Assembly: GCF_029714945.1 (NCBI RefSeq)
Contig: NZ_CP121634.1
Span: 6,283,001 to 6,347,000, forward strand
Length of the DNA: 64,000 nucleotides
Direction: 5' to 3'
Origin: Bradyrhizobium sp. CIAT3101
Lineage (GTDB): Bacteria; Pseudomonadota; Alphaproteobacteria; Rhizobiales; Xanthobacteraceae
Shown here one piece after another: positions 8,944 through 41,752 of the stretch; position 1 is the stretch's first letter; every line of letters begins with the position of its first letter. Position numbers and translations under genes: made by a program. The notes under the pieces are model-generated. The model ran no database searches. It saw nothing but the letters and a program-made list of their open reading frames with translations, and was not told the DNA's origin.

Positions 8944-9092
8944 ATTATGTCCAGTCGGAAACAAATAGCACGTAGCAGACCGACGGACGCTTGGAGAGTC
9001 CCCATCACCCGAATTTGTGCCTTGCAAAGACGCCGCTTCTCGCGCAACCGCAACGGCGTTGCGGACCGCTGGCCCGCAACCGGGCATTCTGC

Positions 9093-10718: not shown

Positions 10719-11048
10719 TCTCTCTATCGTTAGTTTCGCGTATTGAAACTCGGGCCCGCCAGTTCCGTAGTTTAACGCATGTCGCGAGCCGATTGAAACC
10801 GTTCAAGACGGCGTTCACATGCGACATTGTCGGAGACACCGCGCGCGGCATGCGCCAAAAGTCGGAGTGATACATTCGCACCGCGGCAATTTTTCACGGA
10901 TTCCTTCTCCGCTCTTGCATCGCTGCAACACTTTTTGCGTCTTCGGAACGTTGCGTGCGTTCATCGCTTGTATTTCACATCGCACCGGCTCAAGATCGTT
11001 TTTCGAAAATATTCTCCGGCATGTGAACCGGCTGAGGGGCAGGCCCAT
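10719..11048. other. intergenic region between divergent genes
   Basis: About 330 bases between the leftward DUF853 ATPase and the rightward DUF2267-like gene. It is less GC-rich than coding DNA and should hold both promoters. No confident -35/-10 pair, repeat or small gene was identified. The long open frames that cross it belong to out-of-frame extensions of the neighbour. Confidence 0.4.
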
Positions 11049-24797: not shown

Positions 24798-25076
24798 AAA
24801 TCAGCCCGTCAGGAGAAAATACGGACGCGACGCAACGCACACGAATCAATTTAGGCGCGACATGAATATTTTGTGGAAAAGTTTTGACTTGTCCAGCAAC
24901 GACACGGCCGTCGTCACGAAAGACCGTAGTCGTGCGGAGTTTTCAGGGCTTTTCGAGTCAAGCTTCGCGCAAGCATAGCGGGCTTGCCAGCTGTCGTTGC
25001 CGATTCATCACGACGATCGCTCAACCGCGAGGTGATCTCGAATCACGCTTCAAGAAGTCGGACGCCCAAAAGAAAA

Positions 25077-25106
25077 GACCCGTCCGGGGGGACAACCGGA
25101 CGGGTC
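25077..25106 (-). terminator. probable intrinsic terminator downstream of the subtilase gene
   Basis: An 11-base perfect stem gacccgtccgg / ccggacgggtc with an eight-base loop. On the minus strand the stem is followed by TCTTTTCTTTT, a U-rich tail, so it would end leftward transcription from the sigma/anti-sigma/subtilase genes, about 160 bases beyond the subtilase stop. The rest of 24798-25266 shows no gene. Confidence 0.75.
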
Positions 25107-25266
25107 GAGCCATATGGGCGCTTGGGGTGGATGGGCGCTCGCGCCTAATATGACTGATGGGGAGGGATGACCGCTCCCACATAAATTGGTCGTGGCAGCA
25201 GGCTGAACGTTCAAAGTGGCGCTCGATTTTTTAACCTTTGGCCGACGCGCAATGTTGTCGCAGGCA

Positions 25267-26949
25267 CTATCGCGCCGCCGGCCTATCCACCTGAGAAACC
25301 GTGGATTTATCGGTCGCGCTCGACAGCGAGGGCTGCTCGATTGCGCGGATGCCGGGGTCGTCGCGGCGCTTCTCGGCATCTTCACGTTTAGTTGTACCGG
25401 ACGCAGCCGCGACCGGCGTCGTGTTGTCGACCGGAACCGCCATGACCGCGGCGAACGCATCGGGCTCGCCGTCGCCGAAGAGATCATCACGCCCGGGTGA
25501 ACCGAGGTCACGCGCGGTCTTCGACAGCGTCATGCGCAGCGCTTCCGGCTTCAGGGAATAGTTCCGCTCGAGCAGCAACGCCGCGACGCCGGAGACATAG
25601 GCGGCCGAGAACGAGGTGCCCGACGTCATCTGGTATTTGCCATCCGGCGCCGGCAGGAAGATGTCGACGCCCGGCGCCGCCAGCGCGATGTAGTTGCCGC
25701 GGTTGGAGGCGGTGAACAGCCTGTCCTGCTGGTCGGTCGCACTGACCGCGATCACGTTGGGATTGGCGGCGGGATAAAGCGGTGGCGATTTGGCGCCGGC
25801 ATTGCCGGCGGCCGCGATCAGCACCAGGCCCCGCGCGGCAGTTGCCGCGATCGCACGCTCGATCACCGCGTCCTTCGGACCGGCAAAGCTCATATTGACG
25901 ATCTGGGCGCCGTGCTCGGCTGCGTAATTGAGCGAGCGCAGGATGATGTAGGACGAGCTCTCGGCGCTGCCGGTGGTGCCGCCGAAGGCGCGAATGGCGA
26001 TGATGCGCGCTTCCGGCGCGCTGCCCATCAGCTTCGCATGCGCCACGATAGCGCCGGCAATGCCGGTGCCGTGGATATGGGGGCCCTCGCTGCTGCCGAG
26101 CGCATCGAAATTGTCGGCGATGGAGTTGGCGAGTTCGGGGTGCTTGGCGTCGATGCCGGAATCGATCACGGCCACCGTGACATTGGCGCCGTGCGCCAGC
26201 GTGTGCGCCTGCGGCAGGCGCAGCTTCGGCAGCACGTATTGGGCCGGATCACCCTCGCTCGGCACCGCCGATTTCTGGTCCTGGAGCAGGTAGCGGAAGT
26301 TCGGCTGGAGCGATCGCACGCCGCCGTCGGCGGCAAATTCGCGCCGCACCGTCTCATACTGCCGGCCGTCGGCGATACGGAACAAGCCGACCGTGGCCCC
26401 GATCAGCGGAAAATTCTCCGAAGAGACGCGCCTCAAACCGTGGCGCCGCGCGAGTTCATCGGCCTCCGTCAGCGACAGCGCGCTGTCGATCTCGGCCACG
26501 AATTCGTTGGCGAAGCTGCGCAGATTGACGGCGACCGGCGTATTGTTGCCGCGCCCCTTGCCGGCGCTCTTCCTGGTCGATTTGCCGGAACCGTCGCCGC
26601 CTCCGCTCGGCTGCCCCAGGCACTCGCCGTCGGCATCGCGATAGGCCGCCGTGCAGGTCGGATAGAGGTTCGGCGAGTAGCGCGCATAGGGCAGCACCGG
26701 GGTCGTCGCCATCCGCGCCGAGATCCGGGCGGTCGTCACCACGTGCGGACCGCGATCGACGCTGACCGCCCTGGCGGCAATGCTTGGACTGATGGTCGGT
26801 GTTCGCGAGGGCACGCTGATGGTCGGCGTGCGCATGATCGCCTGGGCGTGCGCCACCTCGATGCCGAGGCAGGCGGCGAGCAGGAGCGCGGCTCCGACCG
26901 ACGAAGCGTAGGCCCCGGCTCGCAACTGACTCTCGGACTTGCGCGTCAT
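25267..26949 (-). CDS. exported S8 (subtilisin-like) serine protease
   Basis: A 560-residue subtilase. A signal sequence (GAALLLAACLGIEVAHAQ) suggests export. A Ser/Arg-rich stretch and a prodomain-like segment (about residues 145-222) precede the catalytic domain. The triad is complete: Asp263 in VIDSGID, His293 in HIHGTGIAGA and Ser446 in SGTSFSA; Asn383 in AAGNAG provides the oxyanion hole. A low-complexity C-terminal tail of about 60 residues follows. The gene starts 16 bases after an anti-sigma gene and is the third in an ECF sigma / anti-sigma / protease unit, suggesting a regulatory or effector role. Confidence 0.9.
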   Translation of the reverse strand: MTRKSESQLRAGAYASSVGAALLLAACLGIEVAHAQAIMRTPTISVPSRTPTISPSIAARAVSVDRGPHVVTTARISARMATTPVLPYARYSPNLYPTCTAAYRDADGECLGQPSGGGDGSGKSTRKSAGKGRGNNTPVAVNLRSFANEFVAEIDSALSLTEADELARRHGLRRVSSENFPLIGATVGLFRIADGRQYETVRREFAADGGVRSLQPNFRYLLQDQKSAVPSEGDPAQYVLPKLRLPQAHTLAHGANVTVAVIDSGIDAKHPELANSIADNFDALGSSEGPHIHGTGIAGAIVAHAKLMGSAPEARIIAIRAFGGTTGSAESSSYIILRSLNYAAEHGAQIVNMSFAGPKDAVIERAIAATAARGLVLIAAAGNAGAKSPPLYPAANPNVIAVSATDQQDRLFTASNRGNYIALAAPGVDIFLPAPDGKYQMTSGTSFSAAYVSGVAALLLERNYSLKPEALRMTLSKTARDLGSPGRDDLFGDGEPDAFAAVMAVPVDNTTPVAAASGTTKREDAEKRRDDPGIRAIEQPSLSSATDKSTVSQVDRPAAR

Positions 26950-26965
26950 TGGTGCAGCGGCGCGC

Positions 26966-27658
26966 TTAAGGCGCCGCCACGGCGAGGTTGACGAACTTCT
27001 CGCGCTGCATCCTGCCGAGCAGCGCGGTGAGCTCGTCCTGGCTCATCGCCTTGTCGAACTGCAGGCGGAACATGCCGCCTCTGGCATCGCCGATGATCGA
27101 GGCCTGGTAGCTGTCGAGCAGCGCGGTGATATCGGCCACGCGCGCCTCGGGCGTGAAGCGCACCAGCGCCCGCGCAGGAGCCGCCGCCCCGAGTTCGCGC
27201 GTGATCGGCGCGCCGGTCGACAGCGATGCGGTCTGGAAGGTCGAGGTCTGGGTCTTCATCAGCACGGCGCCGATGATGCCGGCCTGCAGCAGCAGCGCGA
27301 TGGCGCCAAGGCTCGCCGACCAGGCCAGCGTGCGCGGCGACAGGCTGGCGAAGAAGGTGGCAACGCGCGCCGACAACGGCAGCGAACTGGTCGCCCGCTC
27401 CGGCTCGGCGTCGATCGCGGCAAACAGCTTCTGCATCGCGCGCGCCGACGGAGCGCCCAGGCTCTCGTTCAAATGAATGGTCTCTTCGTATTCGCCACGG
27501 ATCGCCGCATATTGCTTCGCGAGCGCCGGATCGCTGGCGAGCGCTTCTTCCACACGGCGGGCATCGCGCGCGTTCAGCGTGCCGGCGGCGTGCCACGGCA
27601 GCAGCATCTCGATCTCACCGGGCTCTTGCTCCAGCATCTTCTTGCTCAGTGCCATCAT
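26966..27658 (-). CDS. membrane anti-sigma factor
   Basis: A 230-residue single-pass membrane protein. The N-terminal region (EIEMLLPWHAAGTLNARDAR) resembles the anti-sigma helical domain of RskA-type proteins (LPWYxxGTL-like) and lacks the HxxxCxxC zinc motif. One transmembrane helix spans about residues 111-133. The C-terminal 70 residues (ALVRFTPEARVADITALLDS... to KFVNLAVAAP) have the beta-alpha-beta pattern of subtilase propeptides. The ATG at 27658-27656 overlaps the sigma factor stop (ATGA), which couples their translation. It should hold the ECF sigma at the inner membrane; the signal is unknown. Confidence 0.8.
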   Translation of the reverse strand: MMALSKKMLEQEPGEIEMLLPWHAAGTLNARDARRVEEALASDPALAKQYAAIRGEYEETIHLNESLGAPSARAMQKLFAAIDAEPERATSSLPLSARVATFFASLSPRTLAWSASLGAIALLLQAGIIGAVLMKTQTSTFQTASLSTGAPITRELGAAAPARALVRFTPEARVADITALLDSYQASIIGDARGGMFRLQFDKAMSQDELTALLGRMQREKFVNLAVAAP

Positions 27659-28224
27659 GGCCAGCCTCGCTCAATGCCGGCTGCCTTCAGCAGTTCGGCC
27701 AATTTCTTGCGCGCATAAAACAAGCGCGTCTTCACAGTGTTCTCCGGGATCCCGACGATCTCGGCCACCTCTTCCACGGACTTCTCGTGGTAGTAGACGA
27801 GGTCGACGATTTCCCGATGGTCCGGCGAGAGGCCCGTCAGACACTCCCGCAACGCTTCACTGGTATCCTTTTTCTGGACCACCGTTTCTGGATTGTCGGA
27901 CGAATCCTCGATCGCATTGGCGGCCTCGTCGTCCAGTTCAAAATCCTTTCGGCGCCGAAGCGCAGACAGGGCCTTGAATCGGGTGATTGCCAGCAGCCAG
28001 GTGGAAACGGCGGATCGGCCCTCGAACTTGCCGGCTTGACGCCAAACGTCGAGAAACACCTCGCTGATGAGGTCTTCCGCCGTCTGCTCGTCCCGCACGA
28101 GCCTCAGCCCGAACCGATACACCCTGACATGGTGCCGCCCGTACAGCACCTGCATGGCAAGACGGTCGCCCTGAGCGATCCTGGCGATAAGGACCTCGTC
28201 CGTAGCCGCCTGTGTCACGCTCAA
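27655..28224 (-). CDS. ECF-type RNA polymerase sigma factor
   Basis: A protein of 187-189 residues with the two sigma domains of ECF factors: region 2 at about 25-95 (YRFGLRLVRDEQTAEDLISE, DVWRQAGKFEGRSAVSTWLL) and region 4 at about 128-180 (LRECLTGLSPDHREIVDLVY, EIVGIPENTVKTRLFYARKK). The longest start is a TTG at 28224; a GTG six bases later is an alternative. It is first in a leftward unit with its anti-sigma and an S8 protease. Autoregulation is likely for such factors, but I could not define its promoter. Confidence 0.9.
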   Translation of the reverse strand: MSVTQAATDEVLIARIAQGDRLAMQVLYGRHHVRVYRFGLRLVRDEQTAEDLISEVFLDVWRQAGKFEGRSAVSTWLLAITRFKALSALRRRKDFELDDEAANAIEDSSDNPETVVQKKDTSEALRECLTGLSPDHREIVDLVYYHEKSVEEVAEIVGIPENTVKTRLFYARKKLAELLKAAGIERGWP

Positions 28225-28662
28225 AGGCCGTCTCGCAAAGTTGGTCGGGTCGATGCGGGGGACGGTTCGACGGGAGGGGTGAAATTCTTCAACCTACCGC
28301 AGTCATACGGGGATGCGTGTGATCTACCACACATACGCGCAATTTCCTTATCCCACCCGTGGCAGTTGGCCGCTTCGCTGCAGAACGGTAACATAATACG
28401 GAAACACTCTCTCGCGGATTTGCCGTGAGCCTGAACGGACGGCCCGGCCGGGCCCGGTCCATAACACGGCCCTGTGCACCTTATGTCGCACGGGGCCGGA
28501 TTTGGTCCGCGATATCGCCTGCGATGCCTAACCGGCCGCAAAATCCCGCACTGCACGAGCCCCTCACCCGCGCCATGTCCCCCGGATTCGGTGCAAAAGG
28601 ATACCAAACCTAAAGGCTTGCCACGTAGATTTTTTCGGCTGACATCCACCATTGGCGGGACC
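28225..28662. other. intergenic region between divergent sigma and diguanylate cyclase genes
   Basis: About 440 bases that must contain promoters for both neighbours. The left third is AT-richer and holds a TGTG-type dyad at 28317-28332. Open frames extending into it from the diguanylate cyclase gene have non-protein-like composition and lack a ribosome binding site. No other feature was seen. Confidence 0.45.
28317..28332. promoter_or_regulatory. possible CRP/FNR-type operator
   Basis: The dyad GTGTG-ATCTAC-CACAC pairs perfectly and resembles a CRP-type TGTGA-N6-TCACA site with one mismatch. It lies about 95 bases upstream of the ECF sigma start and 330 upstream of the diguanylate cyclase. 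No regulator gene is adjacent, so this is a weak call based on symmetry alone. Confidence 0.3.
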
Positions 28663-29820
28663 ATGAGCACGGCCGCGACGTCCTTTCCGGAGAGGAATGC
28701 CGCAGAGGTCGCGGATCTCGTCCTCACGCCCGAGGCGGCTGCGCCCGAGGTGCTGGCGCGGCGGATCCGTCAGCGCCGGCAGATGTATATCGGCCAGGTC
28801 GTCAGCTACTCCCTCGGCGCCTCTGTCCTGCTGCTCTACGCCTATGACGGCGCCGTTCACATCAACGTTCCGTCGCTGTTCTGGGTCGGTGGCCTCTCGA
28901 TCATCGGCATCTTCGTGGTGATGTCGGAGGCCGGCGTCGGCGACAAGCACACCGACCATTATCTCACGGTGTTCCAGATCTCGGCGCATATGGCGCTGCA
29001 GTTCGTGTTCCTGCTGTCGGTACCGACGATCGGCATCGCCTTCATCAGCGTGCTGTTCCTGATCTTCGCATTCGGCACGCTGCGCATGACCTCGGCCCAG
29101 GCGATGCTGACCTGGGCACTCGCCTCCGCAGCACTTGCGGCCGTGTTCCTCGGCTCGGACCTGCCGATCGGCATGCCCGTGGCGACGCGGCTGCAGCGGA
29201 CCGCCTCGATGCTCTGCTTCATGCTGGTGATCGGCCAGTGCGCCTTCCTCGGCCTGTTCGGCGCCACGCTGCGCAAGATCCTCTACCGGCGCAGCATCGA
29301 GCTGAAAGATGCCTATCGACGCATCGAGGAGCTCGCCGAGCTCGACGAGCTGACCGGCTCCTACAATCGCCGCTGCATCATGCGACTTCTCGACGCGGAG
29401 ATGGAAAAGTCGCGGCAGGCGACCGCGCCTTGCGCCATCGCGCTGATCGATCTCGACTGGTTCAAGCGCATCAACGACGCCCACGGCCATCCCGTCGGCG
29501 ACGAGGTGCTGCGCACCTTCGCCATCACCATCTTCGCCAATATCCGGCCCGACGACCGTTTCGGCCGCTATGGCGGCGAGGAGTTTCTGCTGCTGCTGCC
29601 CGGCACCGCGAGCGAGGCCGCATCGCGCATGCTCGATCGGCTGCGCAGCATCGTCGCCGAGCTCGACTGGAGCGCATTCTCGCCCGGCATGCGCGTGACG
29701 ATTTCCGCCGGCGTCGTGACGCTGCGCGACAATGATACTGCCGACACGTTTCTCGCGCGCGCCGACAGCGCGCTCTATTCCGCCAAGGCGCAAGGGCGCA
29801 ACCGCATTGCTACGAGCTGA
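28663..29820 (+). CDS. membrane diguanylate cyclase (GGDEF)
   Basis: A 385-residue inner-membrane protein that probably makes cyclic di-GMP. Six hydrophobic segments lie between about residues 43 and 203. A short coiled linker (SIELKDAYRRIEELAEL) leads to the GGDEF domain, which has LDELTGSYNRR, LIDLDWFKRINDAHGHPVGD and the active-site GGEEF at 304-308. The inhibitory I-site RxxD is intact (RPDD, 295-298), so product feedback is expected. There is no EAL domain. The ATG at 28663 follows GGCGGGA. The sensory role of the membrane part is unknown. Confidence 0.9.
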   Translation: MSTAATSFPERNAAEVADLVLTPEAAAPEVLARRIRQRRQMYIGQVVSYSLGASVLLLYAYDGAVHINVPSLFWVGGLSIIGIFVVMSEAGVGDKHTDHYLTVFQISAHMALQFVFLLSVPTIGIAFISVLFLIFAFGTLRMTSAQAMLTWALASAALAAVFLGSDLPIGMPVATRLQRTASMLCFMLVIGQCAFLGLFGATLRKILYRRSIELKDAYRRIEELAELDELTGSYNRRCIMRLLDAEMEKSRQATAPCAIALIDLDWFKRINDAHGHPVGDEVLRTFAITIFANIRPDDRFGRYGGEEFLLLLPGTASEAASRMLDRLRSIVAELDWSAFSPGMRVTISAGVVTLRDNDTADTFLARADSALYSAKAQGRNRIATS

Positions 29821-29883
29821 CCGATCCATTTCCCGCCGGTGCGTGAGAATACGCCGCCGGACCGAACGCTCCAGGACAGGGCT

Positions 29884-30984
29884 ATGAACTCTAAAACCGT
29901 CAAGTCATCCGAGAATTTGCTCGAGGAATTGCAGTCGGCGCTTTCGCACGGCACCGTCGCGCGCCGGGTCGAGACGCTACGCCGCGTCACCGACCTCTTC
30001 GTCAACAACGCGGTGGATTATTCCGACGACCATGTCCGCGTCTTCGACGACGTGTTCCAGTGCCTGATCGAGCAGATCGAGACCTCGGCAAAAGCGCTGC
30101 TCGCCGACCGGCTCGCGCCGATCCCGGCCGCACCGCCCCAGATCATCCGCACGCTCGCACTCGACGATGTGATCGAGGTCGCCGGCCCCGTGCTGACGAA
30201 GTCGGAGCGGCTGGACGAGACGACCCTGATCGAGATCGCGCGCAGCAAGAGCCAGGCCCATCTCAAGGCGATCTCGCTGCGGCGGGTGCTGTCGGAGGCG
30301 CTGACCGACGTGCTGGTGAGCCGCGGCAACAACGACGTGGTGCAGTCGACCGTCAGCAATCCGGGTGCGCAGCTCTCCGAGGGCAGCCTCACCGACCTCG
30401 TGACGCGCGCCGAACGCGACGACGATCTTGCCACTTGCATCGGCGTGCGGCCCGACCTGCCGCGCCATCATTATCTGAAGCTGATCGCCAAGGCTTCCCT
30501 GAGCGTGCGCAGGAAGCTGGAGGCCGCTCATCCGGAGCTCGCCGACGAAGTGTCGAGCGTGGTCCAGGAAGCGGCGCAGCGGGTCCGGGCCGCCGCGATG
30601 ACCCGGCAGACCGAAATGGCGCGCGCGCTGGTGAAATCACTTCACGACGACGGCCGTCTCAACGAATTCCAGGTCACGACTTTCGCCGAGCAGGGCAAGT
30701 TCGACGAGACCAATGCGGGGCTCGCGGCACTGGCCGGCGTTTCGGTCGAGACCGCCGAAAACATGATGATCGAGAGCCGGACCGAGGGCGTGATGATCCT
30801 CGCCAAGGTCGCCGGCATGCAATGGTCGAGCGTGCGCGCGATCATCGCCATGCGCGAAAAGCTCTCCGGCGGCTCGCAGACCGACATGCTGATCCTGCGC
30901 GATACCTACGAAGCCCTGCGCAGCTCGACGGCTCAGCAGGTGCTGCGCTTCCACCGCATGCAGAACACGACGTCCGCGGCCTGA
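29884..30984 (+). CDS. DUF2336 protein
   Basis: A 366-residue soluble, almost entirely helical protein of the DUF2336 family, found in alphaproteobacteria. Helical-repeat-like blocks include NLLEELQSALSHGTVARRVE, LRRVTDLFVNNAVDYSDDHV and ETAENMMIESRTEGVMILAK. The family is often encoded near cyclic di-GMP, motility or two-component genes, and here it follows a diguanylate cyclase by 63 bases, so a signalling role is plausible but untested. AGGACAGG precedes the ATG at 29884. It is the last native gene before the low-GC insert. Confidence 0.85.
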   Translation: MNSKTVKSSENLLEELQSALSHGTVARRVETLRRVTDLFVNNAVDYSDDHVRVFDDVFQCLIEQIETSAKALLADRLAPIPAAPPQIIRTLALDDVIEVAGPVLTKSERLDETTLIEIARSKSQAHLKAISLRRVLSEALTDVLVSRGNNDVVQSTVSNPGAQLSEGSLTDLVTRAERDDDLATCIGVRPDLPRHHYLKLIAKASLSVRRKLEAAHPELADEVSSVVQEAAQRVRAAAMTRQTEMARALVKSLHDDGRLNEFQVTTFAEQGKFDETNAGLAALAGVSVETAENMMIESRTEGVMILAKVAGMQWSSVRAIIAMREKLSGGSQTDMLILRDTYEALRSSTAQQVLRFHRMQNTTSAA

Positions 30985-31072
30985 GGTTGGACTAACCACA
31001 CCTTTGAGCAAAAGAGAGTCTCATAATTTCTTGGCGATCAAGTCCCTCGCAACTGGCCGCCGAATTGTGCCT

Positions 31073-33910
31073 TCATATGCTCTGAATTTCGCCCGCCGCC
31101 AAGGTCACCAAGTCATTCGGATGCTTAAATCGCGTCAGCTCTTGAGCCATCAGCAGTTCAGCATGATCCCGAGCGAGATCCATTTGCCGCTTCCGATCGG
31201 CAGAATCTCTCGCTCTCGGCTCGCCGTCCTCGCAACCTCGGGACAAGAGCCGCCTGACAATACTTGTGTTCACAGCAGGAGCGGATCCCGACTCCTGAGT
31301 TAGCACGATCAACCTCTCGCTCAGAGTGTGACCTTGATCGTTTTGAAACCTCGCCAAAAATGCTGCAATAAACTCTTCCGCTCCTTGGCTGGCGAGAGCC
31401 GCATAGCTTCCGTTAAAGTGATCGGCTGTTACACTTCCGATGAGCCAATTCAGAAACTGGGTTGAGAAATCGACCAGTACACGTTCGCCTGGGATCCAGT
31501 CAGCTCGGCGTGTCGTGGCGCTAACGACAGTTCTCCCACCAAATTCCGCAAACCTGCCTCTCATATGACTTGGCAGGCGCATCGTAAATCTCTCTCGGTC
31601 TCCCGTTTCCTCAATTTCGATATCAAAGAAGGGAGTCGCGCGCTTGATAAAAGCTGCAACATCCACAGTCGCATATTGACCGAGAGACTCCAAATCCAAC
31701 GCTCCTGTAGACGCAGCCAAACTCAATACATCGTCTTGAATTAGCTTCGCCCTCTTTGCTTGATTCAAAGCAGCGTCGATACGATCTTGCGTCCGATCGA
31801 CACGCCCGTTCTGCGCCTCCTCGATCAGTGCAGTAATGTCCACGCGCTCCAGCAGCTCACCAAGAATATCTGCCGCGTAGCGCTCATCGAACTCAGGACC
31901 AACAGTCGCCATCTCTCGGACGATCGTGTCAAGCCGCTCAAACAAAATCGAGACTATTTCATTGTCGATAGTATCTCGCGCAAGGAAGTTTATTACGATC
32001 ACTTGTTGTTTTTGCCCATAGCGATAGAGGCGACCTATCCGCTGCGAAATTCTCGCAGGATTCCACGGAAGGTCGTAGTTGATCATTATGTGGCAATCCT
32101 TGTGAAGATTCAGACCTTCACCGCCCGCTTCGGTTGATATGAGAATTGGGTTTTCAGATTCAAAAGACTTGATAGCCTCACGCTTCTCTTCAACAGTCTT
32201 GCTACCGTTGATGATTTCAGGCTTCTCACCGGAGATAGATTGCAGCCGATAGAGTAGATACGCCTGAGTCGACCGGTACTCCGTAAAGATCAGAACCTTC
32301 TTTTTCTGAACAAGGACAATGTCTCGAACCAGGGAAACCAGAGCGTCGCCCTTCTTGTCATTCCTCATGGCCTCGGCTGCCTTGGCCATCAAATCGCGCA
32401 GCAACTGCGTTTCCGTTTCGAAGAATGGAGCACGTCCCGGTCCGCGAGAGCGTTCATCTAGCTGATCATCTCCATCGGATTCTTCATCATCCAACGCCGC
32501 ATATTGTGCGTTGTCCGCATCGCCTTGTGCAGTGAGCCGCTCAAACCTATTCTTCAGCGCAATATAAAGTGCCGCTATCGATGAAGACGCCATCTTTCGA
32601 TAGATCGTCATGACGAATCCAATCGCCCTACCCTCGGCGCCGCCCAAAGAGTCACCCGCGCGATAGCCCAAACGGAGATAATCACGGAGCTGGCGTTCAA
32701 GGAGCTCGAATTGAGGATCGTGATCTATCGTTGCGCGCCGAACGATCAATCCTTTGAACAGAAAAGCGCCATCCAGATCGACCGCGTCAATTTTTCGATT
32801 TCGAAGGACTATCTCCTGAACAACGTCTGGTTCAGTCTCAATCTCCGCTATTGCCTTCGCAAGATCGGGACGCACAAGCGTCAGCAGATTTCGAAATCTC
32901 CCTGTGTCACCCTGGTGTGGCGTGCCTGTGAGCAAGACGAGCCTATCAGTCTTTGAGCGCAGCGCCTGCGCCAGCTTAAATCGAAGCGTAGATCGTCCTC
33001 TATCGTCCCGTGCAAGCCTATGCGCTTCATCAAAAACAATCAGATCCCACGTTCCAGCAGCCAACAACATACCAAACGATGTTGAATCATTCGCTCCATC
33101 GTCTTCGGCGTCACGTGGCTTCGCCAGATCAAGCGAGACGATCACTCGTTCGAAGAGCCCCCATTCTTTATGATCTGAGATACGAAAATCTGACCCAAAG
33201 ATCAGAAAACGCCGATCAAACTTCGAAAGCATCTCCTCTTTCCACTGACGGGTCAGGCCAGATGGAACGACGAACAAAATTCTTCGCAGATTTTGCCGAC
33301 GCTCAAGGGCAGCCAACAGCAGGCCCACTTCTATAGTTTTTCCTAAGCCAACATCGTCAGCAATAAGCCAATTTGTCTGTCCTGAGTTCACTATGCGATG
33401 AACAAGCGAAATCTGGTGAGGCAAGGGATCGACGTCGAGCCGATCTAGAGCTCCGGTCGCCTCGTTCCACTTACTCAGCGCATGCGCAATAATATTTAGT
33501 GAGAAACGCTCAGCTCCGTTTTCGGCAATTGGACCTGCTCGGCGAAAAAGAAGCTCCGGATCCATAATTCGACGCAATCGCTCGAACGGGAGCCAAATCG
33601 ATTGACCCGTCGAATGCAACTGGACGAGAACCTGCAAGCGGGTCGCCAGCTCACGTACATGTAGGACGCTTCCTGCGCCTAAAGTTTCTCTAACGCCGGA
33701 AAGAGGTACATCTTGGACGCAATGCCCTATCTGAAGCCCACAGCCCCACTCATCGGGCCCCAAAGTGCCTCTACCAGTGCTTGGTCCAAAATCCACCTCG
33801 ATCAGGGGGCCGTTCGACGTTTCTCTCGCGGCTACAACGACGCCGATTTCGCTTGGATTGGATCGCCGACAGACCCAAGCGCCTTCGATAGGGACAAGCT
33901 GATCAATCAT
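31073..33910 (-). CDS. large RapA-like SNF2 helicase, candidate defence protein
   Basis: A 945-residue SNF2-family ATPase. Motif I is DDVGLGKT (185-192), motif II DEAH (294-297), motif III LTGTPHQ (328-334) and helicase C-terminal motifs STEAGGEGLN (592-601) and QRIGRLYRYGQ (622-632). About 160 residues precede motif I, and a further 280 follow the helicase core. The core order and motifs resemble RapA/HepA and SNF2 proteins of defence modules, but no sigma/RNA-polymerase adaptor is evident. Codon usage is AT-richer than the flanks. It starts 12 bases after an unknown gene at 33923-34885, with which it forms a two-gene unit. Confidence 0.85.
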   Translation of the reverse strand: MIDQLVPIEGAWVCRRSNPSEIGVVVAARETSNGPLIEVDFGPSTGRGTLGPDEWGCGLQIGHCVQDVPLSGVRETLGAGSVLHVRELATRLQVLVQLHSTGQSIWLPFERLRRIMDPELLFRRAGPIAENGAERFSLNIIAHALSKWNEATGALDRLDVDPLPHQISLVHRIVNSGQTNWLIADDVGLGKTIEVGLLLAALERRQNLRRILFVVPSGLTRQWKEEMLSKFDRRFLIFGSDFRISDHKEWGLFERVIVSLDLAKPRDAEDDGANDSTSFGMLLAAGTWDLIVFDEAHRLARDDRGRSTLRFKLAQALRSKTDRLVLLTGTPHQGDTGRFRNLLTLVRPDLAKAIAEIETEPDVVQEIVLRNRKIDAVDLDGAFLFKGLIVRRATIDHDPQFELLERQLRDYLRLGYRAGDSLGGAEGRAIGFVMTIYRKMASSSIAALYIALKNRFERLTAQGDADNAQYAALDDEESDGDDQLDERSRGPGRAPFFETETQLLRDLMAKAAEAMRNDKKGDALVSLVRDIVLVQKKKVLIFTEYRSTQAYLLYRLQSISGEKPEIINGSKTVEEKREAIKSFESENPILISTEAGGEGLNLHKDCHIMINYDLPWNPARISQRIGRLYRYGQKQQVIVINFLARDTIDNEIVSILFERLDTIVREMATVGPEFDERYAADILGELLERVDITALIEEAQNGRVDRTQDRIDAALNQAKRAKLIQDDVLSLAASTGALDLESLGQYATVDVAAFIKRATPFFDIEIEETGDRERFTMRLPSHMRGRFAEFGGRTVVSATTRRADWIPGERVLVDFSTQFLNWLIGSVTADHFNGSYAALASQGAEEFIAAFLARFQNDQGHTLSERLIVLTQESGSAPAVNTSIVRRLLSRGCEDGEPRARDSADRKRQMDLARDHAELLMAQELTRFKHPNDLVTLAAGEIQSI

Positions 33911-33922
33911 TAAATTAGTTAC

Positions 33923-34885
33923 TTAGTTGGCGGCCACTTCGGATGCTTTAGCTGTTAGGTGTGAGAGCCCCCACGTATCGGTGTTTAGGCGCACAAGCTG
34001 CCCCGTACGGGAAGGAGTTCCAAGGAGCGTACCGTCAAGAGAGTTTCCTCCGAAGCTCGCAGACGAAGCTTGCCCGCCATCCCGTTTGAGTTCGTGAGGA
34101 AGATCGAGCGCACCCGCGGAAAACGCCTCTAGTCGAAAGGTCGTATAATCAATAAACGACCAAAACATTGGGTCTCCAAATGGAACTGAGAGCCAATCAT
34201 CATACCAGTCATCTCGAATGATACATTCGGCCGGCAACCCTTTTGCCAAAAGCGCCATTCGCGCCGCTCTGCTCCAAGTAAGCATCGCTCGTCCGGAATC
34301 CGGAACGAATGGCGCTCCCAACCTTGACCGGCGAACACTCCAGAATTTCGGGCTCTCGCTCCAACCGAGTTTCAAATGAAACGCGCAGAGAATCTCATCT
34401 GCAGTAACATCGTGAAGCGCTAGATCTGATATCGCTCTGAAGGATGACGGGTGACTGAAACAATCGAACAGCTCAACAAATTGTTGATAGAGCTCCTTGT
34501 GGCGACTTTTGGCAGGAACATCGAGCAGACTTAGCAGCCATCGAGCTCTCCGCTCCGACATAGCCTCGGCTTCGGGCCTATGACGAGGCGGTGCAAATGG
34601 CTGTTCGGCAGCCCTCGCATCAAAACGAGGAAGTTCGACATAGTCGAACCAGCCGGACTGCCGTCCGAGGAGGGGGGCGGGGGCTTCCGACCGCTTAGAC
34701 AACGGGTCCCAAAAGTCCCAATCTCGCGCTTCGAAGACTTGCTCAAGCGCGAGAACACGGGGATCAATCCGGCTCGGCGGTTCCCAATGGTCCGCTGCTG
34801 CAATAAGTCCAAGAGGTTCCGGCCGAAAATCTTCGGCCTTCCAAAAAGAAAGCATTGCCCCGCTGCGGCGACCACAAAAGCGCAT
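33923..34885 (-). CDS. unknown protein encoded upstream of the SNF2 helicase
   Basis: A 320-residue soluble protein that I do not recognise. It is rich in Trp, Phe and Asp (ARDWDFWDP, GWFDYVELPRFD, DDWYDDWLSVPFGDP) with helical stretches (SERRARWLLSLLDVPAKSRH, ELYQQFVELFDCFSH). There is no transmembrane segment, signal peptide, nuclease motif or P-loop that I can see. The ATG at 34885 has GGGAGGGG just upstream. The helicase gene follows after 12 bases, so the two proteins are probably made together. Likely roles are recognition or recruitment for the helicase, but this is inference. Confidence 0.75.
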   Translation of the reverse strand: MRFCGRRSGAMLSFWKAEDFRPEPLGLIAAADHWEPPSRIDPRVLALEQVFEARDWDFWDPLSKRSEAPAPLLGRQSGWFDYVELPRFDARAAEQPFAPPRHRPEAEAMSERRARWLLSLLDVPAKSRHKELYQQFVELFDCFSHPSSFRAISDLALHDVTADEILCAFHLKLGWSESPKFWSVRRSRLGAPFVPDSGRAMLTWSRAARMALLAKGLPAECIIRDDWYDDWLSVPFGDPMFWSFIDYTTFRLEAFSAGALDLPHELKRDGGQASSASFGGNSLDGTLLGTPSRTGQLVRLNTDTWGLSHLTAKASEVAAN

Positions 34886-35008
34886 CGCCCCTCCCTAGGG
34901 GATCATTCCTCAACGTCCAGCTGCATGCAAGATGAGCATCACGCAAAAGAGACTCTCTACGCCAAATGGCTAAGAGAGCTAGTCTGGTGCTTCCTCCTAG
35001 GGAGCAAA

Positions 35009-35647
35009 TTAATACCGCAACACCCTCGATCCAACCGCCGCGCCGATCGCGGTCACGACCGCGGTCGCGATCGTGTACCAGGTCGCGACGAACAGCGGCG
35101 AGTCGTCGGTGCAGTGCGAGGCGTAGAGCGTCGCGGCGAGCCCGGCCGACAACAGGCCGGCGAGCGCGCCGGCAAGCGCCGGCCGCGACGGCGCACCATG
35201 GCGCAGACCGAACAGGGCGCCCGCGAGCAGCGGCAGCGACATCGCCGGGATCGCCACCATGCACCACCGCGAGTTCTTGCCGACGAGCCGCATCGTCATC
35301 GGCATGGCCGGCGTCATCATCGCTTCACTGCCGATCGCGACCGCAAGCAGCCCAACGGGGAGCAACAGCAGCCAGCCCCAGCCGCGCATCAAGGCTTCGG
35401 GCCGAGACAGATGCAGGCTGATGATGATCGCGGGGATCGCGAGCGACAAGGTAACGGCGAACTTCGTGTCGAAGAACGGGTTGTGCATCGCCGTCATCAC
35501 GTCCGGCCGCACGCCCAGGAAGGTTGCAAAAATCAGGATCGAGAACGGCGCTGCCACCAACAGGCCCATGGTCAGCAAGCCGCCGACGCGCGGGGCACGG
35601 TGGGCATTGTCGGCCGCGAGGCTGCGAATGAGTTGATCGGTGTCCAT
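35009..35647 (-). CDS. NrsF/DUF1109-type membrane anti-sigma factor
   Basis: A 212-residue protein with about six transmembrane helices and the NrsF (DUF1109) signature cysteines: one in NSRWCMVAIP and one in SHCTDDSPLF. In Caulobacter and relatives, NrsF proteins hold SigF-type ECF sigma factors at the inner membrane and release them under metal or oxidative stress through these cysteines. The gene starts 2 bases after the stop of the ECF sigma gene at 35650-36195, as in that system. The 3' end is intact, so the adjacent insertion did not truncate it. Confidence 0.9.
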   Translation of the reverse strand: MDTDQLIRSLAADNAHRAPRVGGLLTMGLLVAAPFSILIFATFLGVRPDVMTAMHNPFFDTKFAVTLSLAIPAIIISLHLSRPEALMRGWGWLLLLPVGLLAVAIGSEAMMTPAMPMTMRLVGKNSRWCMVAIPAMSLPLLAGALFGLRHGAPSRPALAGALAGLLSAGLAATLYASHCTDDSPLFVATWYTIATAVVTAIGAAVGSRVLRY

Positions 35648-35649
35648 GA

Positions 35650-36195
35650 CTAGTGGTCCCGTAGTTTGGCCGTCAGGGCCGCAAGGCCCCGGTGCAGCGC
35701 GACCCGCACGGCACCTTCGCTCATCGAGAATTTCGTCGCCGTATCCTTGATCGAGGCGCTGTCGACGGCGATCGACTGCAACACGTCGCGCTGGCGCTGC
35801 GGCAGCGTATTGAGCTGCGCGGTGACCTCGCCTGCCGAGGCCGTCTCCTGCGGCGTCTCGCCGGGCAGCGTTTCGGCGAAATCGTCGATGTTGACGAAGA
35901 CACGCCGGCCGCGACGCCGGAGCGCATCGATCAGCTTGTTGCGCGCGATCGCGAACAGCCAGGGGGCGAAGGGCGCTTCGCTATCCCAGGTGTGCCGCTT
36001 CAGATGCACCGCCAACAAAATCTCCTGCACGATATCCTCGGCCTGATCGGGAGGCTGCCCGGCCCTCGCCAGGCCGCGCCTTGCGGCAGCGCGCAGCACC
36101 GGCGTGACCGCCTTCAACAGGCGATGATACGCCGCATCATCGCCTGCCATGGCCGACCGCATCAGGTCGGTCCACTCGTCCTCACGTCCGCGCAC
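35650..36195 (-). CDS. SigF-type ECF sigma factor
   Basis: A 181-residue ECF sigma factor. Region 2 (VTPVLRAAARRGLARAGQPP, QAEDIVQEILLAVHLKRHTW, APWLFAIARNKLIDALRRRG) and region 4 (LNTLPQRQRDVLQSIAVDS, TKFSMSEGAVRVALHRGLAA) are clear. It starts at a GTG preceded by GAGGGG. The NrsF-like anti-sigma is encoded 2 bases downstream, which places it with the SigF-NrsF systems. A candidate autoregulatory promoter lies upstream at 36217-36241. Targets elsewhere in the genome cannot be seen from here. Confidence 0.9.
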   Translation of the reverse strand: MRGREDEWTDLMRSAMAGDDAAYHRLLKAVTPVLRAAARRGLARAGQPPDQAEDIVQEILLAVHLKRHTWDSEAPFAPWLFAIARNKLIDALRRRGRRVFVNIDDFAETLPGETPQETASAGEVTAQLNTLPQRQRDVLQSIAVDSASIKDTATKFSMSEGAVRVALHRGLAALTAKLRDH

Positions 36196-36216
36196 GCGCG
36201 CCCCTCACCATTGCAA

Positions 36217-36241
36217 TTCGGCCGCTCTTTCAATTTGTTAC
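36217..36241 (-). promoter_or_regulatory. candidate SigF-type ECF promoter of the sigma/NrsF operon
   Basis: Reading leftward, GTAAC is followed after 16 bases by CGAA, matching the GTAAC-N16-CGAA form known for Caulobacter SigF promoters. The -10 side is about 20 bases upstream of the sigma GTG start. Autoregulation would be typical. The motif is short, so chance occurrence is possible. Confidence 0.5.
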
Positions 36242-36486
36242 GTCGGGGCCTACTTGATCACAAAGTCGTGATCAAGACTGATCCTGCCCCGAAGCAGCCG
36301 CAGAAAGCTCTCGCAGGGCTCATAACACCGATCGGTCCGTGCCGCACCCGGCGGGCCGATGCACCGGACAAGGTTTGCCCCGGTTTTGCCCGGTGTGGCC
36401 CGAAGATTCCCATATTTTGCCCCGTTGTCGTCATGGGCCGGGGTCTCTGTTCGCCCCGGGACGGGCGAATTGGGGAGATCATCAAC

Positions 36487-37167
36487 ATGATGAAAGCCAG
36501 CGGACACGCGGCATTGGTCGCTCTGACCGGACTATTCCTGCTGTTTGGAGCCTCGGTGCAGGCCGCACCGAGCGCTGCGAGCACGAATCCGGACGGCGCA
36601 AGCAAACAGGCCGATGAGGTCAAGCCGAGCAAGCAGCGACGCCATTCGTCGCGCCGCCACACCGACAGCAAGACGGCGCAGAAATCCGACGACAAGGCCG
36701 ACAAGACTGACAAGGCGGATGCCACGCCGCAGGCCGACCAGACCAAGGTCAGCAGCAAGTCCGCGACCGACGTCCCGGCCTCGAGCCAGATGCCGCCGGA
36801 AGTCGCCAATGCGAACGCGCAGCTCGCCGCCGCGGACACGCCGACTGCGGCCGCAGCCTCGGCGATGACGGGCCGCGCCAACGACAATGTGCAAGCAGCG
36901 ACCGACACGAACGCTGCCGCCAATGCCGAGAACCAGGTGGTCGCGCCCGACCAGCTCAACGACCTCGATCGCGCCTTGCCACAGGACAACCCGCCCGTGC
37001 AGAAGGCGGTGGTCGCCGCAACCGACGCGCAGCCGCGTCCCGCGCCGATGATGGCGAGCAGCCAGCCGAGCTCGGCCTGGGACCAGAGCTCGCTGATCGG
37101 CAAGATCTTCATCGGCGTCGGCACGCTGCTGACACTGGCCTCCGCCGCCCGCATGTTCATGGCTTAG
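36487..37167 (+). CDS. exported low-complexity protein with C-terminal membrane helix
   Basis: A 226-residue protein that I do not recognise. It has an N-terminal signal sequence (ALVALTGLFLLFGASVQAA), a middle region of about 160 residues rich in Ala, Asp, Lys, Gln and Thr (DDKADKTDKADATPQADQTK) and a C-terminal hydrophobic helix (SLIGKIFIGVGTLLTLASAA). GGGGAG lies upstream of the paired ATGs. The composition suggests a disordered periplasmic chain anchored at its C-terminus. It is divergent from the ECF sigma gene; dependence on that sigma is possible but no matching promoter was found upstream. Confidence 0.65.
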   Translation: MMKASGHAALVALTGLFLLFGASVQAAPSAASTNPDGASKQADEVKPSKQRRHSSRRHTDSKTAQKSDDKADKTDKADATPQADQTKVSSKSATDVPASSQMPPEVANANAQLAAADTPTAAAASAMTGRANDNVQAATDTNAAANAENQVVAPDQLNDLDRALPQDNPPVQKAVVAATDAQPRPAPMMASSQPSSAWDQSSLIGKIFIGVGTLLTLASAARMFMA

Positions 37168-37288
37168 GTCTTGGCCTAACGCCCCGTCTCGGGGCGCGCT
37201 GCGCGCGCGTCCCGGCCGCTTTTGGACCCCTTGAAGCCCACCCCGCCAGCGGGCACATTGCCTGCCCAATCAAACGCGTGGGTGGACC

Positions 37289-38068
37289 ATGAGCACGTTC
37301 GAACACATCATCGTCGAAAGCAAAGGCGCGGTCGGCATCATCAAGCTGAACCGGCCGAAGATGCTCAACGCGCTCTCCTTCGGCGTGTTTCGCGAGATTG
37401 CTGCCGCCGTCGACGATCTCGAAGCCGATGACGCCATCGGCTGCATCGTCGTGACCGGCAGCGAGAAGGCCTTTGCCGCCGGCGCCGACATCAAGGAGAT
37501 GCAGCCGAAAGGCTTCATCGACATGTTCTCCGAGGACTTTGCCGCGATCGGCGGCGACCGCGTCGCGCGCTGCCGCAAGCCGACCATTGCGGCGGTCGCA
37601 GGCTATGCCCTTGGCGGCGGCTGCGAGCTCGCCATGATGTGCGACTTCATCATTGCTGCCGATACCGCCAAATTCGGCCAGCCCGAGATCACGCTCGGCA
37701 CCATCCCCGGCATCGGCGGCACCCAGCGCCTGACCCGCGCGATCGGCAAGTCCAAGGCGATGGATCTCTGCCTCACCGGCCGCATGATGGACGCAGCCGA
37801 AGCCGAGCGCTCGGGCCTCGTCAGCCGCATCGTGCCGGCCGACAAGTTGATGGACGAGACCATGGCGGCTGCCGAGAAGATCGCCTCCATGTCGCGTCCT
37901 GCCGTTGCGATGGCCAAGGAAGCAGTCAACCGCGCCTTCGAGACCACGCTCGCCGAAGGCATGAGCGTCGAACGCAATCTGTTTCACTCGACCTTCGCGC
38001 TCGAAGACCGCTCCGAGGGCATGGCCGCGTTCATCGAGAAGCGCAAGCCGGTGAACAAGAACCGGTAA
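37289..38068 (+). CDS. enoyl-CoA hydratase
   Basis: A 259-residue crotonase-fold enzyme hydrating trans-2-enoyl-CoA in fatty-acid beta-oxidation. Catalytic glutamates are Glu113 in [11 protein letters not shown] and Glu133 in [11 protein letters not shown], with the 20-residue spacing of mitochondrial crotonase. The oxyanion-hole residues lie in [10 protein letters not shown] and AGYALGGG. Chain-length preference is not evident. The ATG at 37289 follows GTGGACC with modest Shine-Dalgarno character. It stands alone, followed by a 26-base inverted-repeat element and the convergent acetyl-CoA hydrolase gene. Confidence 0.95.
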
Positions 38069-38079
38069 GACTCTCCGCA

Positions 38080-38206
38080 GTCGTCCCGGCGAAAGCCGGG
38101 ACCCATACCGCGGAATCCATCGATGGCGGAAAGTGGACGTACCAAACAACGAGTCTTCGTCAAACTCCTCCCTGGGGTTATGGGTCCCGGCTTTCGCCGG
38201 GACGAC
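38080..38206. repeat. 127-base element with perfect 26-base terminal inverted repeats
   Basis: The ends read gtcgtcccggcgaaagccgg plus gaccca and the exact reverse complement on the right (38181-38206). Each end is itself a small hairpin (cccggc-gaaa-gccggg). The 75-base centre (with tccctggggttatggg near its right end) has no open frame of note. It separates two convergent genes and ends 9 bases from the stop of the acetyl-CoA hydrolase. The form is MITE-like; no flanking target duplication was identified. Confidence 0.85.
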
Positions 38207-38214
38207 ACCCGAGG

Positions 38215-40074
38215 CTAGACGTGACTACGTGCCAAAGCCGCGCCGACGAGCGCGCAGTAGAAGCGCTCGGCCCAGGTTTTTGGGCGATCGAGGCCGAGGC
38301 GTGCGAGACACGCCTGATCCGCCGCATCAGGTTTCTGCGTCAAGCCTTGCCACAACAGGCCCGCCAGCGCGCGCGATGAATGCTGCGCGCCCTGCAGGAT
38401 TTCCAGCGCCGGGATGAGGCGCTGCTCGACCTCGGTAAAATCGCAGCCGAACGGAAACGACGGCAACAGCCCGGCCTCGCGCGCGGGCTTGAGTGCTGCC
38501 GCGATCCGCTCCGGATGGTTTTCACGATGGACCGCCGGGATATCGTAGCCCCGCGGCAGTTTGCCGGCCTCCTTCGCCACCCGCACCAGCTCGTCCTGGA
38601 AGCGCGAGTCAGCAATCTCGAGCATGGCCGCGATCACATCGGCGTCCGACTTTCCCCTGAGATCGGCAACACCGTATTCGGTGACGAAGACATCGCGCAG
38701 ATGCCGCGGGATGGTTTCGTGCCCGTAGCGCCAGAGAATGTTGGATTTCAAGGCGCCGCCGGCCTGCCGCGTGGCCTCGAGCGTCAGGACCGATCGCGCT
38801 GCGTTCAGGGCAAAAGCCTGCGCCACGAAATTGTACTGTCCGCCGACGCCGCTCACGACCTGGCCGTCGTCGAGGCCGTCGGACACGGCTGCGCCCAGAA
38901 GCGTCGCCATCATCGTGACGTTGATGAAGCGTGCGTCGATGCGGGCGCGACGCTTCTGGTCCTCATCGCCGTAGAGCTCGTTCGTGAACGACACCGGCAT
39001 CATCTGGACGCGTGCGATCAACTCCGGCGGCATCTCGCGCAGCGCGCGATAGAACGACTTTGGACCGAGGAAGAAGGCACCGTGCAGCACCACGCCGTCG
39101 ACGGCGCGCTTGAGAATGCCGGCGTCGATCAGGCCGATGAACGCCTCGGTGACCATCTCGCTGACGCCGTAAAGGCCCGCCTCGAAGGCACCGGCCTCCT
39201 GCGCGACGGCTGGTCGCGCCGGAGACAGCCGTGTGACGACATGATGAAATGCCGCACTGTCGCGATGGCGCAGGATCAGGCCCTGCGCCAGCGCATCGCC
39301 GACCTGTCCGATGCCGATTTGCAGCGTGCCGCCGTCGCGCACGAGAGAGGCTGCATTCAGGCCGATCGCGTATTTGGTATCGGAGATCGGCTCCGACGGC
39401 GGCGCGAACAGGGGAAAGTCGGTCGCCGCGCTGTCCAGCACGGCGCAAAACTCCTCGGCCGGAAGATCGCCCTCGCCCGGCATGAACGGCAGCTCGGAAT
39501 TCACCTGTGCGATCAGCTTGAACGACGCGCGTCCGGCGCGACGCTCGCGCAGCACGTCCAGCGTCGTGTCGGTGTTGCAGGACAGGCTGTAGCGCGGCAC
39601 GCCATCGACGACGCGTTTGGCGACCAGCTGCGTCACCACGTTCATCCCGCGCGCCAGCAGATAGCTCGCCGCGTGGGTATAGTTGGCCGAGATGTAATTC
39701 TGCTGTGCGGCCGGCACATGCAGCCAGCGTCCGGCAAGAAAGAAGAACTCGACCACGCCGATATTGGGCGGCAGCCGATTCGCGCGCAGCGCATCGGCAT
39801 AGGCCAGGTCGGGATACCCTCCAAACAGGCGGTCGATGACAGGCGTGATGAAGCGGCTTTCGATCAGGGCCTTCGGCTTCGGCTTCTCCAGCGTCAGCGC
39901 CGACAGCAATGTCAGCTTGATGTAAGGATCGGCGCAGGCCCGCGCGTAAAGGGCATTGACCACGTGATTGGCCTTGCCGAGGCCGAGCGGCAGACCGACC
40001 ACCAGATCGGTTCCAACCTCGCGAATGATCTCCTCCGCGAGCGCATCGGGATCGGAGAAGAATTTCGGCATCAT
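38215..40074 (-). CDS. acetyl-CoA hydrolase/transferase family protein
   Basis: A 619-residue member of the acetyl-CoA hydrolase / 4-hydroxybutyrate CoA-transferase superfamily. The N-terminal half (VGLPLGLGKANHVVNALYAR, NYISANYTHAASYLLARG) and the C-terminal domain (GVGGQYNFVAQAFALNAARS, VFVTEYGVADLRGKSDADVI) are both present; VFVTEYGVADLRG is highly typical. The enzyme would transfer CoA between carboxylates or hydrolyse acyl-CoA, but the acceptor is unknown. It is longer than usual (about 430-550), with an extended N-terminus and C-terminal tail. ATGs at 40074/40071 (MMPKFF) are favoured over one at 40098. The C-terminus runs to the edge of the inverted-repeat element. Confidence 0.85.
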   Translation of the reverse strand: MMPKFFSDPDALAEEIIREVGTDLVVGLPLGLGKANHVVNALYARACADPYIKLTLLSALTLEKPKPKALIESRFITPVIDRLFGGYPDLAYADALRANRLPPNIGVVEFFFLAGRWLHVPAAQQNYISANYTHAASYLLARGMNVVTQLVAKRVVDGVPRYSLSCNTDTTLDVLRERRAGRASFKLIAQVNSELPFMPGEGDLPAEEFCAVLDSAATDFPLFAPPSEPISDTKYAIGLNAASLVRDGGTLQIGIGQVGDALAQGLILRHRDSAAFHHVVTRLSPARPAVAQEAGAFEAGLYGVSEMVTEAFIGLIDAGILKRAVDGVVLHGAFFLGPKSFYRALREMPPELIARVQMMPVSFTNELYGDEDQKRRARIDARFINVTMMATLLGAAVSDGLDDGQVVSGVGGQYNFVAQAFALNAARSVLTLEATRQAGGALKSNILWRYGHETIPRHLRDVFVTEYGVADLRGKSDADVIAAMLEIADSRFQDELVRVAKEAGKLPRGYDIPAVHRENHPERIAAALKPAREAGLLPSFPFGCDFTEVEQRLIPALEILQGAQHSSRALAGLLWQGLTQKPDAADQACLARLGLDRPKTWAERFYCALVGAALARSHV

Positions 40075-40297
40075 CCGTGGGTCCGGACCGCATGGCAAAG
40101 GCGCCCGACGGAATTGGAAGGCGCCATGGGTCCCCTATAGCGCATTCGAGGCGGAATCGCTGTGTGACGCACCTGCAACAAGCACGGATTTCATGGGGGT
40201 TTCCTCCGCGGCAGTTTGCCTGCGGGACCGGCGCTGGGTAAACAGTTAAGAGAGCCGCCGTCGGCGGGGGCGGACAGCCGGGGTTTTGCGGGATTAC

Positions 40298-41728
40298 ATG
40301 ATTGGGCGTGCCGCCAGAGCTGGCCGCGTGATGACGCGGCGTCGATCGGGCGTGGGTCCTGTCCTGGCGGCATGGACCACGGTCGCGTTGTGTTGCGCCC
40401 TACCCGCCGCGGCCTGCGCGGAAGCCCTGCCGGAGGCGCTGGTCAAGGCCTACCAGACCAACCCCCAACTCAACGCCGAGCGCGCAAGGCAGCGCGCCAC
40501 CGACGAGAACGTGCCGCAGGCGCTGGCCGGCTACCGGCCGCAGATCGTGGCGAGCCTCAGCGCCGGCCTGCAGGCGGTGCGCAACCTGCTTCCGGACAAC
40601 ACCATCCAGACCGCGACGCTGAAGCCCTGGACCATCGGGGTCACGGTGTCGCAGACCCTGTTCAACGGCTTCCGCACCGCCAACAACGTGCGGGTCGCGG
40701 AACTCCAGGTGCAGTCCGGCCGCGAGGCGCTGCGCAATGTCGGCCAGGGCGTGCTGCTCGACGCCGTCACCGCCTACACCAACGTGCTGGCCAACCAGTC
40801 GCTGGTCGAGGCGCAACGCTCCAACGTCGCCTTCCTGCGCGAGACGCTCGCCATCACCCAGCGCCGACTCAATGCCGGCGACGTCACCCCGACCGACAGC
40901 GCCCAGGCCGAGGCGCGCCTCAACCGCGGCCTTGCCGACCTCAATGCCGCGGAAGTCGCGCTTGCGGTGAGCCAGGCGACCTATTCCCAGGTGATCGGCA
41001 ATGCGCCCTCGGCGCTCCGCCCTGCCGAGGTGGTCGATCGCTATCTGCCGAAGACCCGCGAGGATTCGATCACGATGGCGATCCGCGAGCATCCGGCGGT
41101 GATGGCAGCCAGTTTCGACGTCGACGTCGCCTCGACCAATATCCGCGTCGCCGAAGGCGCGCTGCTGCCGAGCGCCAGCCTCCAGGGCAGCGTCAGCCGC
41201 AGCCGCGACGCCGACCAGACGCTCGGCACCTTCGCCACCGACCAGGCCTCGATCGTCGCCAACGTCACCGCACCGATCTATGACGGCGGCCAGGCCGCCT
41301 CTCAGACCCGGCAGGCCAAGGAAGTCACGGCGCAGAGCCGGCTCGTGCTCGACCAGGTACGCAACCAGGCGCGCACCGCAGCGGTCAGCGCCTGGGTCGC
41401 CAATGAAGGCGCCAAGATCGCGGTCTCGGCCTCGGAATCCGAAGTGAAAGCAGCGACCGTCGCGCTCCAGGGCGTCCAGCGCGAGGCCGCCGGCGGACAG
41501 CGCACCACCGTCGACGTGCTGAACTCGCAGGCCGATCTGATCCAGGCCAGGGCCCGCCTGATCGGCGCGCTGCGCGACCGCGTCATCGCCTCCTACACGC
41601 TGCTCAGCGCCGTCGGTCATCTGGACGTCAAGACGCTGAGCCTGAACACCCCGGACTATCTGCCCGAGGTGCACTACCAGCAGGTCCGCGACGCCTGGCA
41701 CGGCCTGCGCACGCCGTCGGGGCAATAA
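40298..41728 (+). CDS. TolC-family outer-membrane efflux protein
   Basis: A protein of about 476 residues with an N-terminal signal sequence (VLAAWTTVALCCALPAAACA) and two tandem outer-membrane-efflux-protein domains. The first has ALPEALVKAYQTNPQLNAER and QTLFNGFRTANNV; the second has EHPAVMAASFDVDVASTNIR and PIYDGGQAASQTRQAKE. Members form trimeric channels for type I secretion or RND pumps. An RND/adaptor pair lies 2.4 kb downstream in the opposite orientation with no outer-membrane partner of its own, so a link is possible. The ATG at 40298 is the first good start; 40331 is an alternative with a shorter signal peptide. Confidence 0.9.
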   Translation: MIGRAARAGRVMTRRRSGVGPVLAAWTTVALCCALPAAACAEALPEALVKAYQTNPQLNAERARQRATDENVPQALAGYRPQIVASLSAGLQAVRNLLPDNTIQTATLKPWTIGVTVSQTLFNGFRTANNVRVAELQVQSGREALRNVGQGVLLDAVTAYTNVLANQSLVEAQRSNVAFLRETLAITQRRLNAGDVTPTDSAQAEARLNRGLADLNAAEVALAVSQATYSQVIGNAPSALRPAEVVDRYLPKTREDSITMAIREHPAVMAASFDVDVASTNIRVAEGALLPSASLQGSVSRSRDADQTLGTFATDQASIVANVTAPIYDGGQAASQTRQAKEVTAQSRLVLDQVRNQARTAAVSAWVANEGAKIAVSASESEVKAATVALQGVQREAAGGQRTTVDVLNSQADLIQARARLIGALRDRVIASYTLLSAVGHLDVKTLSLNTPDYLPEVHYQQVRDAWHGLRTPSGQ

Positions 41729-41752
41729 CTTCAAATCTTCCGGTCGATCTCG

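Follow-up and report, generated by a model that had tools for sequence, protein, structure and literature searches.

A low-GC insert of Bradyrhizobium sp. CIAT3101 encoding a RapA-like helicase and a conserved partner protein, a candidate two-gene defence system

Helicase-centred immunity is known in several forms. In Hachiman and in the helicase-DUF2290 pairs the partner of the helicase is DUF1837 or DUF2290. RapA-like SNF2 helicases are found in BREX type 3 (BrxHII), among the BREX-related (BR) helicases and within the multi-gene defence systems DISARM (DrmD) and ARMADA (ArmA). In an excerpt of PMC12839542, BrxHII is described with TUDOR, SNF2, inactive restriction endonuclease (REase) and alpha+beta C-terminal domains, and according to a portion of PMC13316683 on DruH-DruE of Druantia type III, a helicase needs no more than one dedicated partner, with which it interacts, to make up a complete system. 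Here we present a pair of adjoining genes, for a RapA-like helicase and a partner protein, from a low-GC insert of Bradyrhizobium sp. CIAT3101. The window, that is the whole stretch of 64,000 nucleotides that was analysed, covers positions 6283001-6347000 of a single-contig 9.37-Mb genome. Because the two genes are found together at all loci followed, often adjoining known anti-phage systems, the pair probably forms an unrecognised defence system.

The insert and its two genes, 12 base pairs (bp) apart, show the following features (window positions; aa, amino acids):

30983..35025, low-GC insert, with 15 bp in its place in genome G509
31073..33910, minus strand, RapA-type SNF2/Swi2 ATPase, 945 aa
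33335..33349, minus strand, Walker A motif GLGKT, helicase residues 188-192 (K191)
33020..33031, minus strand, DEAH box, helicase residues 294-297
33923..34885, minus strand, partner protein of 320 aa, or of 298 aa should translation start at Met23
34571..34885, minus strand, partner residues 1-105, arm predicted to be largely unordered and containing the motifs DHWEP and DFWDP (model confidence mostly <60)
34106..34570, minus strand, partner residues 106-260, predicted helical domain common to the family (profile match; predicted local distance difference test score 69-95 in blocks 111-260)

The guanine-plus-cytosine (GC) content per 500-bp step is 0.494-0.580 across 31000-34999, compared with 0.608-0.702 in the flanks (24000-41999), which confirms the low-GC stretch with just two leftward genes noted in the first-pass annotation. 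G509, a genome labelled as the same species, aligns to the window with 99.3% identity in the flanks; the alignment stops at window position 30982 and restarts at 35026. Since G509 is devoid of the intervening sequence, the stretch is a discrete gained insert and not a mere accident of composition.

All 21 loci followed, from Bradyrhizobium, Rhodopseudomonas, other Proteobacteria and Deinococcus, carry both genes, with the partner always upstream of the helicase and a gap of 25 bp or less, or an overlap, in 20 of them. Lack of conservation between the two had been set beforehand as a possible refutation; the partner used as query found seven genomes, each with an adjoining helicase, and the helicase used as query led to 14 further loci, each with the partner. 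The partner associates with one helicase clade. Eight distant partners were recovered by a profile trained without them, the two Deinococcus partners only via an intermediate sequence. No paper describing the pair was found by searches of open-licence PMC text (without supplements).

The 945-residue protein had been read as a RapA-like SNF2 ATPase, and K191 as well as D294, E295 and H297 of the DEAH box are indeed invariant in an alignment of 48 rows, the other 47 of which are 37-94% identical to the window helicase. In its model two predicted small barrels at the N-terminus precede the SNF2 engine, the C-terminal domains are RapA-like, and RapA is the nearest solved structure over the full length. 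Unlike housekeeping RapA, the helicase scores only 151.9 bits on NF003426 (curated cut-off 576), and it is patchy, paired and inserted. Grouping with housekeeping RapA had likewise been named beforehand as a possible refutation; in the tree the pair's helicases form a 100/100 clade apart from RapA, although the RapA branch is very long. The scores also stay below the cut-offs for DrmD (307.3 bits on NF038317, cut-off 610; 173.2 on NF038318, cut-off 950), DpdE (186.4 on NF041062, cut-off 500) and ZorD (67.7 on NF041790, cut-off 1500); four helicase relatives reach 308.7-344.0 bits on NF038317 and 166.0-181.5 on NF038318. The best PADLOC model for the helicase is the BrxHI/BrxHII one, PDLC02500 (1.6e-105), whereas three BREX-3-like rows form a separate 100/100 clade and the pair's clade lies apart from both a Roseomonas BREX-3 helicase and a Klebsiella BR-like helicase. 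The two modelled small barrels differ from the one TUDOR described for BrxHII in the PMC12839542 excerpt. The pair resembles DruH-DruE in outline, but its helicase has no Pfam match to a DUF1998-type (YprA) C-terminal domain at E 1. Acidic helicase positions 789 and 814, conserved in near relatives, were considered as a nuclease site; as they are not kept together in Nitrosococcus, L051 and Deinococcus, no catalytic claim is made. The 36 clade-specific positions do not cluster into one obvious partner-binding patch.

The partner, earlier called unrecognised, remains so: no family of Pfam, NCBIfam or PADLOC matches it above cut-off, and it has no relative in the PDB. Pfam gave only a sub-cut-off match to GST_N_2 and PADLOC none at E 1; neither DUF1837 nor DUF2290, the partners in Hachiman and the helicase-DUF2290 pairs, was matched. 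The alignment of relatives to the 320-aa open reading frame (ORF) begins at Met23, but just ahead of the ATG at 34885 lies a purine-rich sequence resembling a ribosome-binding site, so that either start may be used. The invariant positions (17 rows) are mostly aromatic and therefore give no hint of an enzyme. The motif D-[FHP]-W-[DEA]-P, chosen after the sequences had been viewed, is present in eight of 12 partners, with 13 copies in their arms compared with 0.035 per shuffle. The N-termini of relatives are longer; those of Nitrosococcus and L051 match TPR weakly, and those of Deinococcus show, by eye, long coiled-coil-like stretches.

No DISARM, BREX or ARMADA core genes (DrmA/B/C, PglZ, BrxC, PglX, YprA) were detected at PADLOC 1e-30 among ORFs taken from up to 8 kb around the window's pair, in agreement with the first-pass annotation. 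The locus thereby differs from BREX, from DISARM and, as far as an excerpt of PMC12458937 gives its composition, from ARMADA. With DISARM and ARMADA it has the RapA-like type of helicase in common, and DrmD-like and UvrD genes lie near some of the pairs.

The insertion junction and the repeats of the insert comprise:

29839..30984, plus strand, DUF2336 gene, left flank, its stop differing from that of G509
35009..35647, minus strand, NrsF-family gene, right flank
35650-36195, ECF sigma gene, right flank beyond NrsF
31008..31022, plus strand, left copy of a 15-bp near-perfect direct repeat (one mismatch)
34943..34957, plus strand, right copy of the same repeat

An equally good repeat was found in none of 60 shuffles. 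In G509 the DUF2336 and nrsF genes share four bases where their stop codons meet. Since only 41-68 bp separate the aligned flanks in G481, G439 and G046, and G505 and G024 carry different cargo (4,090 and 2,183 bp), the junction is variable and its short form apparently the ancestral one. The last codons of the window's nrsF are unlike those of G509 and still encode the VLRY end, as if the 3' end of the gene had arrived together with the insert. In locus L016 the pair island lies between 184-bp direct repeats (8072-8255 and 12305-12488; 98.9% identical), whose sequence duplicates the 3' end of a neighbouring host gene, and in L015 a 33-bp direct repeat flanks the island; no such repeat was found within 3-kb flanks in L011-L014. 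Low-GC pair islands are also distinct in L011, L014, L015 and L016, and in L012 and L013 the pair lies within broader low-GC regions. Within the genus the pair is patchy (four of 265 genomes). On plasmids no partner was found by tblastn; three carry the helicase at 1e-100. Scans for tRNA and Rfam families gave no match, the promoter scan gave no site, and terminator matches were at chance level.

A strong defence neighbour was defined as a PADLOC match at 1e-30 or better. Such matches lie near the pair in 12 loci, and L152 was added to give 13:

L012, HKD+Snf2
L013, DrmA
L014, type I REase
L022, Dsr1
L026, L027 and L154, type III methylase
L051, type I methylase and specificity genes
L148 and L150, type I genes
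L149, DrmD-like
L151, type IIG/DrmMI-like
L152, 82% identical type III methylase

Strong defence genes occur in none of seven control stretches from the window's own genus and family (only two subtilase matches among 61 ORFs), an indicative comparison as ORF selection differed. In the eight loci of one gammaproteobacterial family (L051, L148-L154) a core recurs in the order WYL regulator (present in six), 218-aa unmatched protein (in all eight, although in L051 only as a fragment), partner and helicase. What comes after this core is exchangeable: a type I, a type III or a DrmD-like module. WYL regulators are known next to defence systems (PMC9122601 and PMC9122589).

The insert is accordingly read as a mobile two-gene system, most likely for defence against phages or other invading elements, in which a non-enzymatic adaptor would steer a RapA-like translocase against invading DNA; we consider this account likely, with room left for others. 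Beyond the pairing, insertion, motor architecture and neighbours reported above, docking, sensing, translocation and stripping are suggested by analogy with RapA and defence helicases, and the defence role itself by the neighbours, the mobility and the helicase type. The helicase would be a double-stranded-DNA motor of RapA type, and the helical C-terminal domain of the partner, as its dedicated adaptor, may dock on it. The disordered arm with its tryptophan motifs, or the TPR or coiled-coil-like N-termini of relatives, would sense or bind a component of the invader; alternatively, the arm may hold the motor off until an invader is sensed. Once released or recruited, the motor would travel along invading DNA and strip or block transcription and replication complexes. 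No nuclease is evident in either protein. Some hosts have the pair next to a restriction module or a methylase, but the type III methylase found there would not be required.

Several observations weigh against the defence reading. Eight of the 21 loci (the window, L011, L015, L016, L023, L024, L025 and L153) have no strong defence neighbour in the scanned ORFs; the first seven of these gave single matches named Helicase, Cas12f, Csx1 and subtilase, the Cas12f match being probably the annotated TnpB of L023. At 13 loci ORFs were picked for a defence-like look, while selection in the controls was more even; loci that are related do not count as independent cases, shared descent accounts for their stepwise divergence, and the DFWDP motif is missing in four of 12 partners. 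No copy of the pair was found in the viral contigs or phage records scanned: viral contigs gave no helicase match and no partner by pattern search, a wider helicase scan of them showed the partner domain in none of the best 80 of 196 relatives, and phage records gave no match at 1e-20.

The pair could also be no more than the motor component of larger systems, of restriction or BREX/DISARM-like type, incomplete alone and in need of methylases adjoining it or elsewhere. This would suit the adjoining type III-like methylase (L026, L027, L152, L154), type I genes (L051, L148, L150) and DrmD-like helicase (L149 and L151, the latter with its type IIG/DrmMI-like methylase as well), but it appears unlikely: in the window, L011, L015 and L016 the pair stands alone in a small low-GC island, and a type III methylase is missing at E 1e-60 from eight of 10 pair-bearing genomes, including G000, and is therefore not a fixed part of the system. 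An exchangeable accessory transcription set, with a RapA-like RNA polymerase recycler and a regulator, is improbable. RapA, which acts on RNA polymerase according to the titles of the matched PDB entries, is closest to the helicase model, whereas the patchy presence, the recent insertion, the defence neighbours at 13 loci and the score below the RapA cut-off speak for a different role. Least probable is a toxin-antitoxin-like addiction pair maintaining its own island; the tight linkage and common direction of the two genes and their position on mobile DNA would fit it, but no toxin family was matched and the helicase is far above the size of typical toxins. The defence reading is therefore preferred, and the first-pass proposal of an undescribed defence module is supported as a candidate by the neighbours, the mobility and the helicase type.

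Further observations concern related loci. In Trichormus and Deinococcus QL22, giant proteins encoded ahead of SNF2 genes were tried as partners without a match; these helicases belong to another clade, and the giant proteins (L138 234-5795; L135 1-5962) share an NPALQGxG..APP stretch. The cargo at the DUF2336/nrsF junction of other Bradyrhizobium consists, by eye, of a two-gene oxidoreductase-like insert (L046 6222-10311) and a 674-aa membrane-protein-like ORF (L047 5250-7432). A UvrD-type helicase adjoins the pair in L027 (5996-8074), its N-terminus RelE-like by eye and reminiscent of ARMADA ArmD. In L153 an SbcD/SbcC-like gene pair (7048-10805) lies downstream of the pair at the position of the relatives' type III methylase, of which an 81-aa fragment is all that is left.

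A wider proposal, put forward tentatively and with less confidence than the defence reading itself, is a nuclease-free defence class in which a fast-evolving tryptophan-motif adaptor and a RapA-type translocase would form a self-sufficient two-gene core from Proteobacteria to Deinococcus and could, under a common WYL regulator, also combine with one or another methylase module, be it type I, type III or DISARM-like. If the defence reading is true, helicase-centred immunity would gain a small system of just two genes as well as an adaptor family that has no name yet. How the RapA-type motors of BREX, DISARM and ARMADA learn which DNA to attack would then become a testable question, as the insert offers a motor and a candidate specificity factor, free of methylase and nuclease, within 4 kb, a size that allows cloning and mutation.
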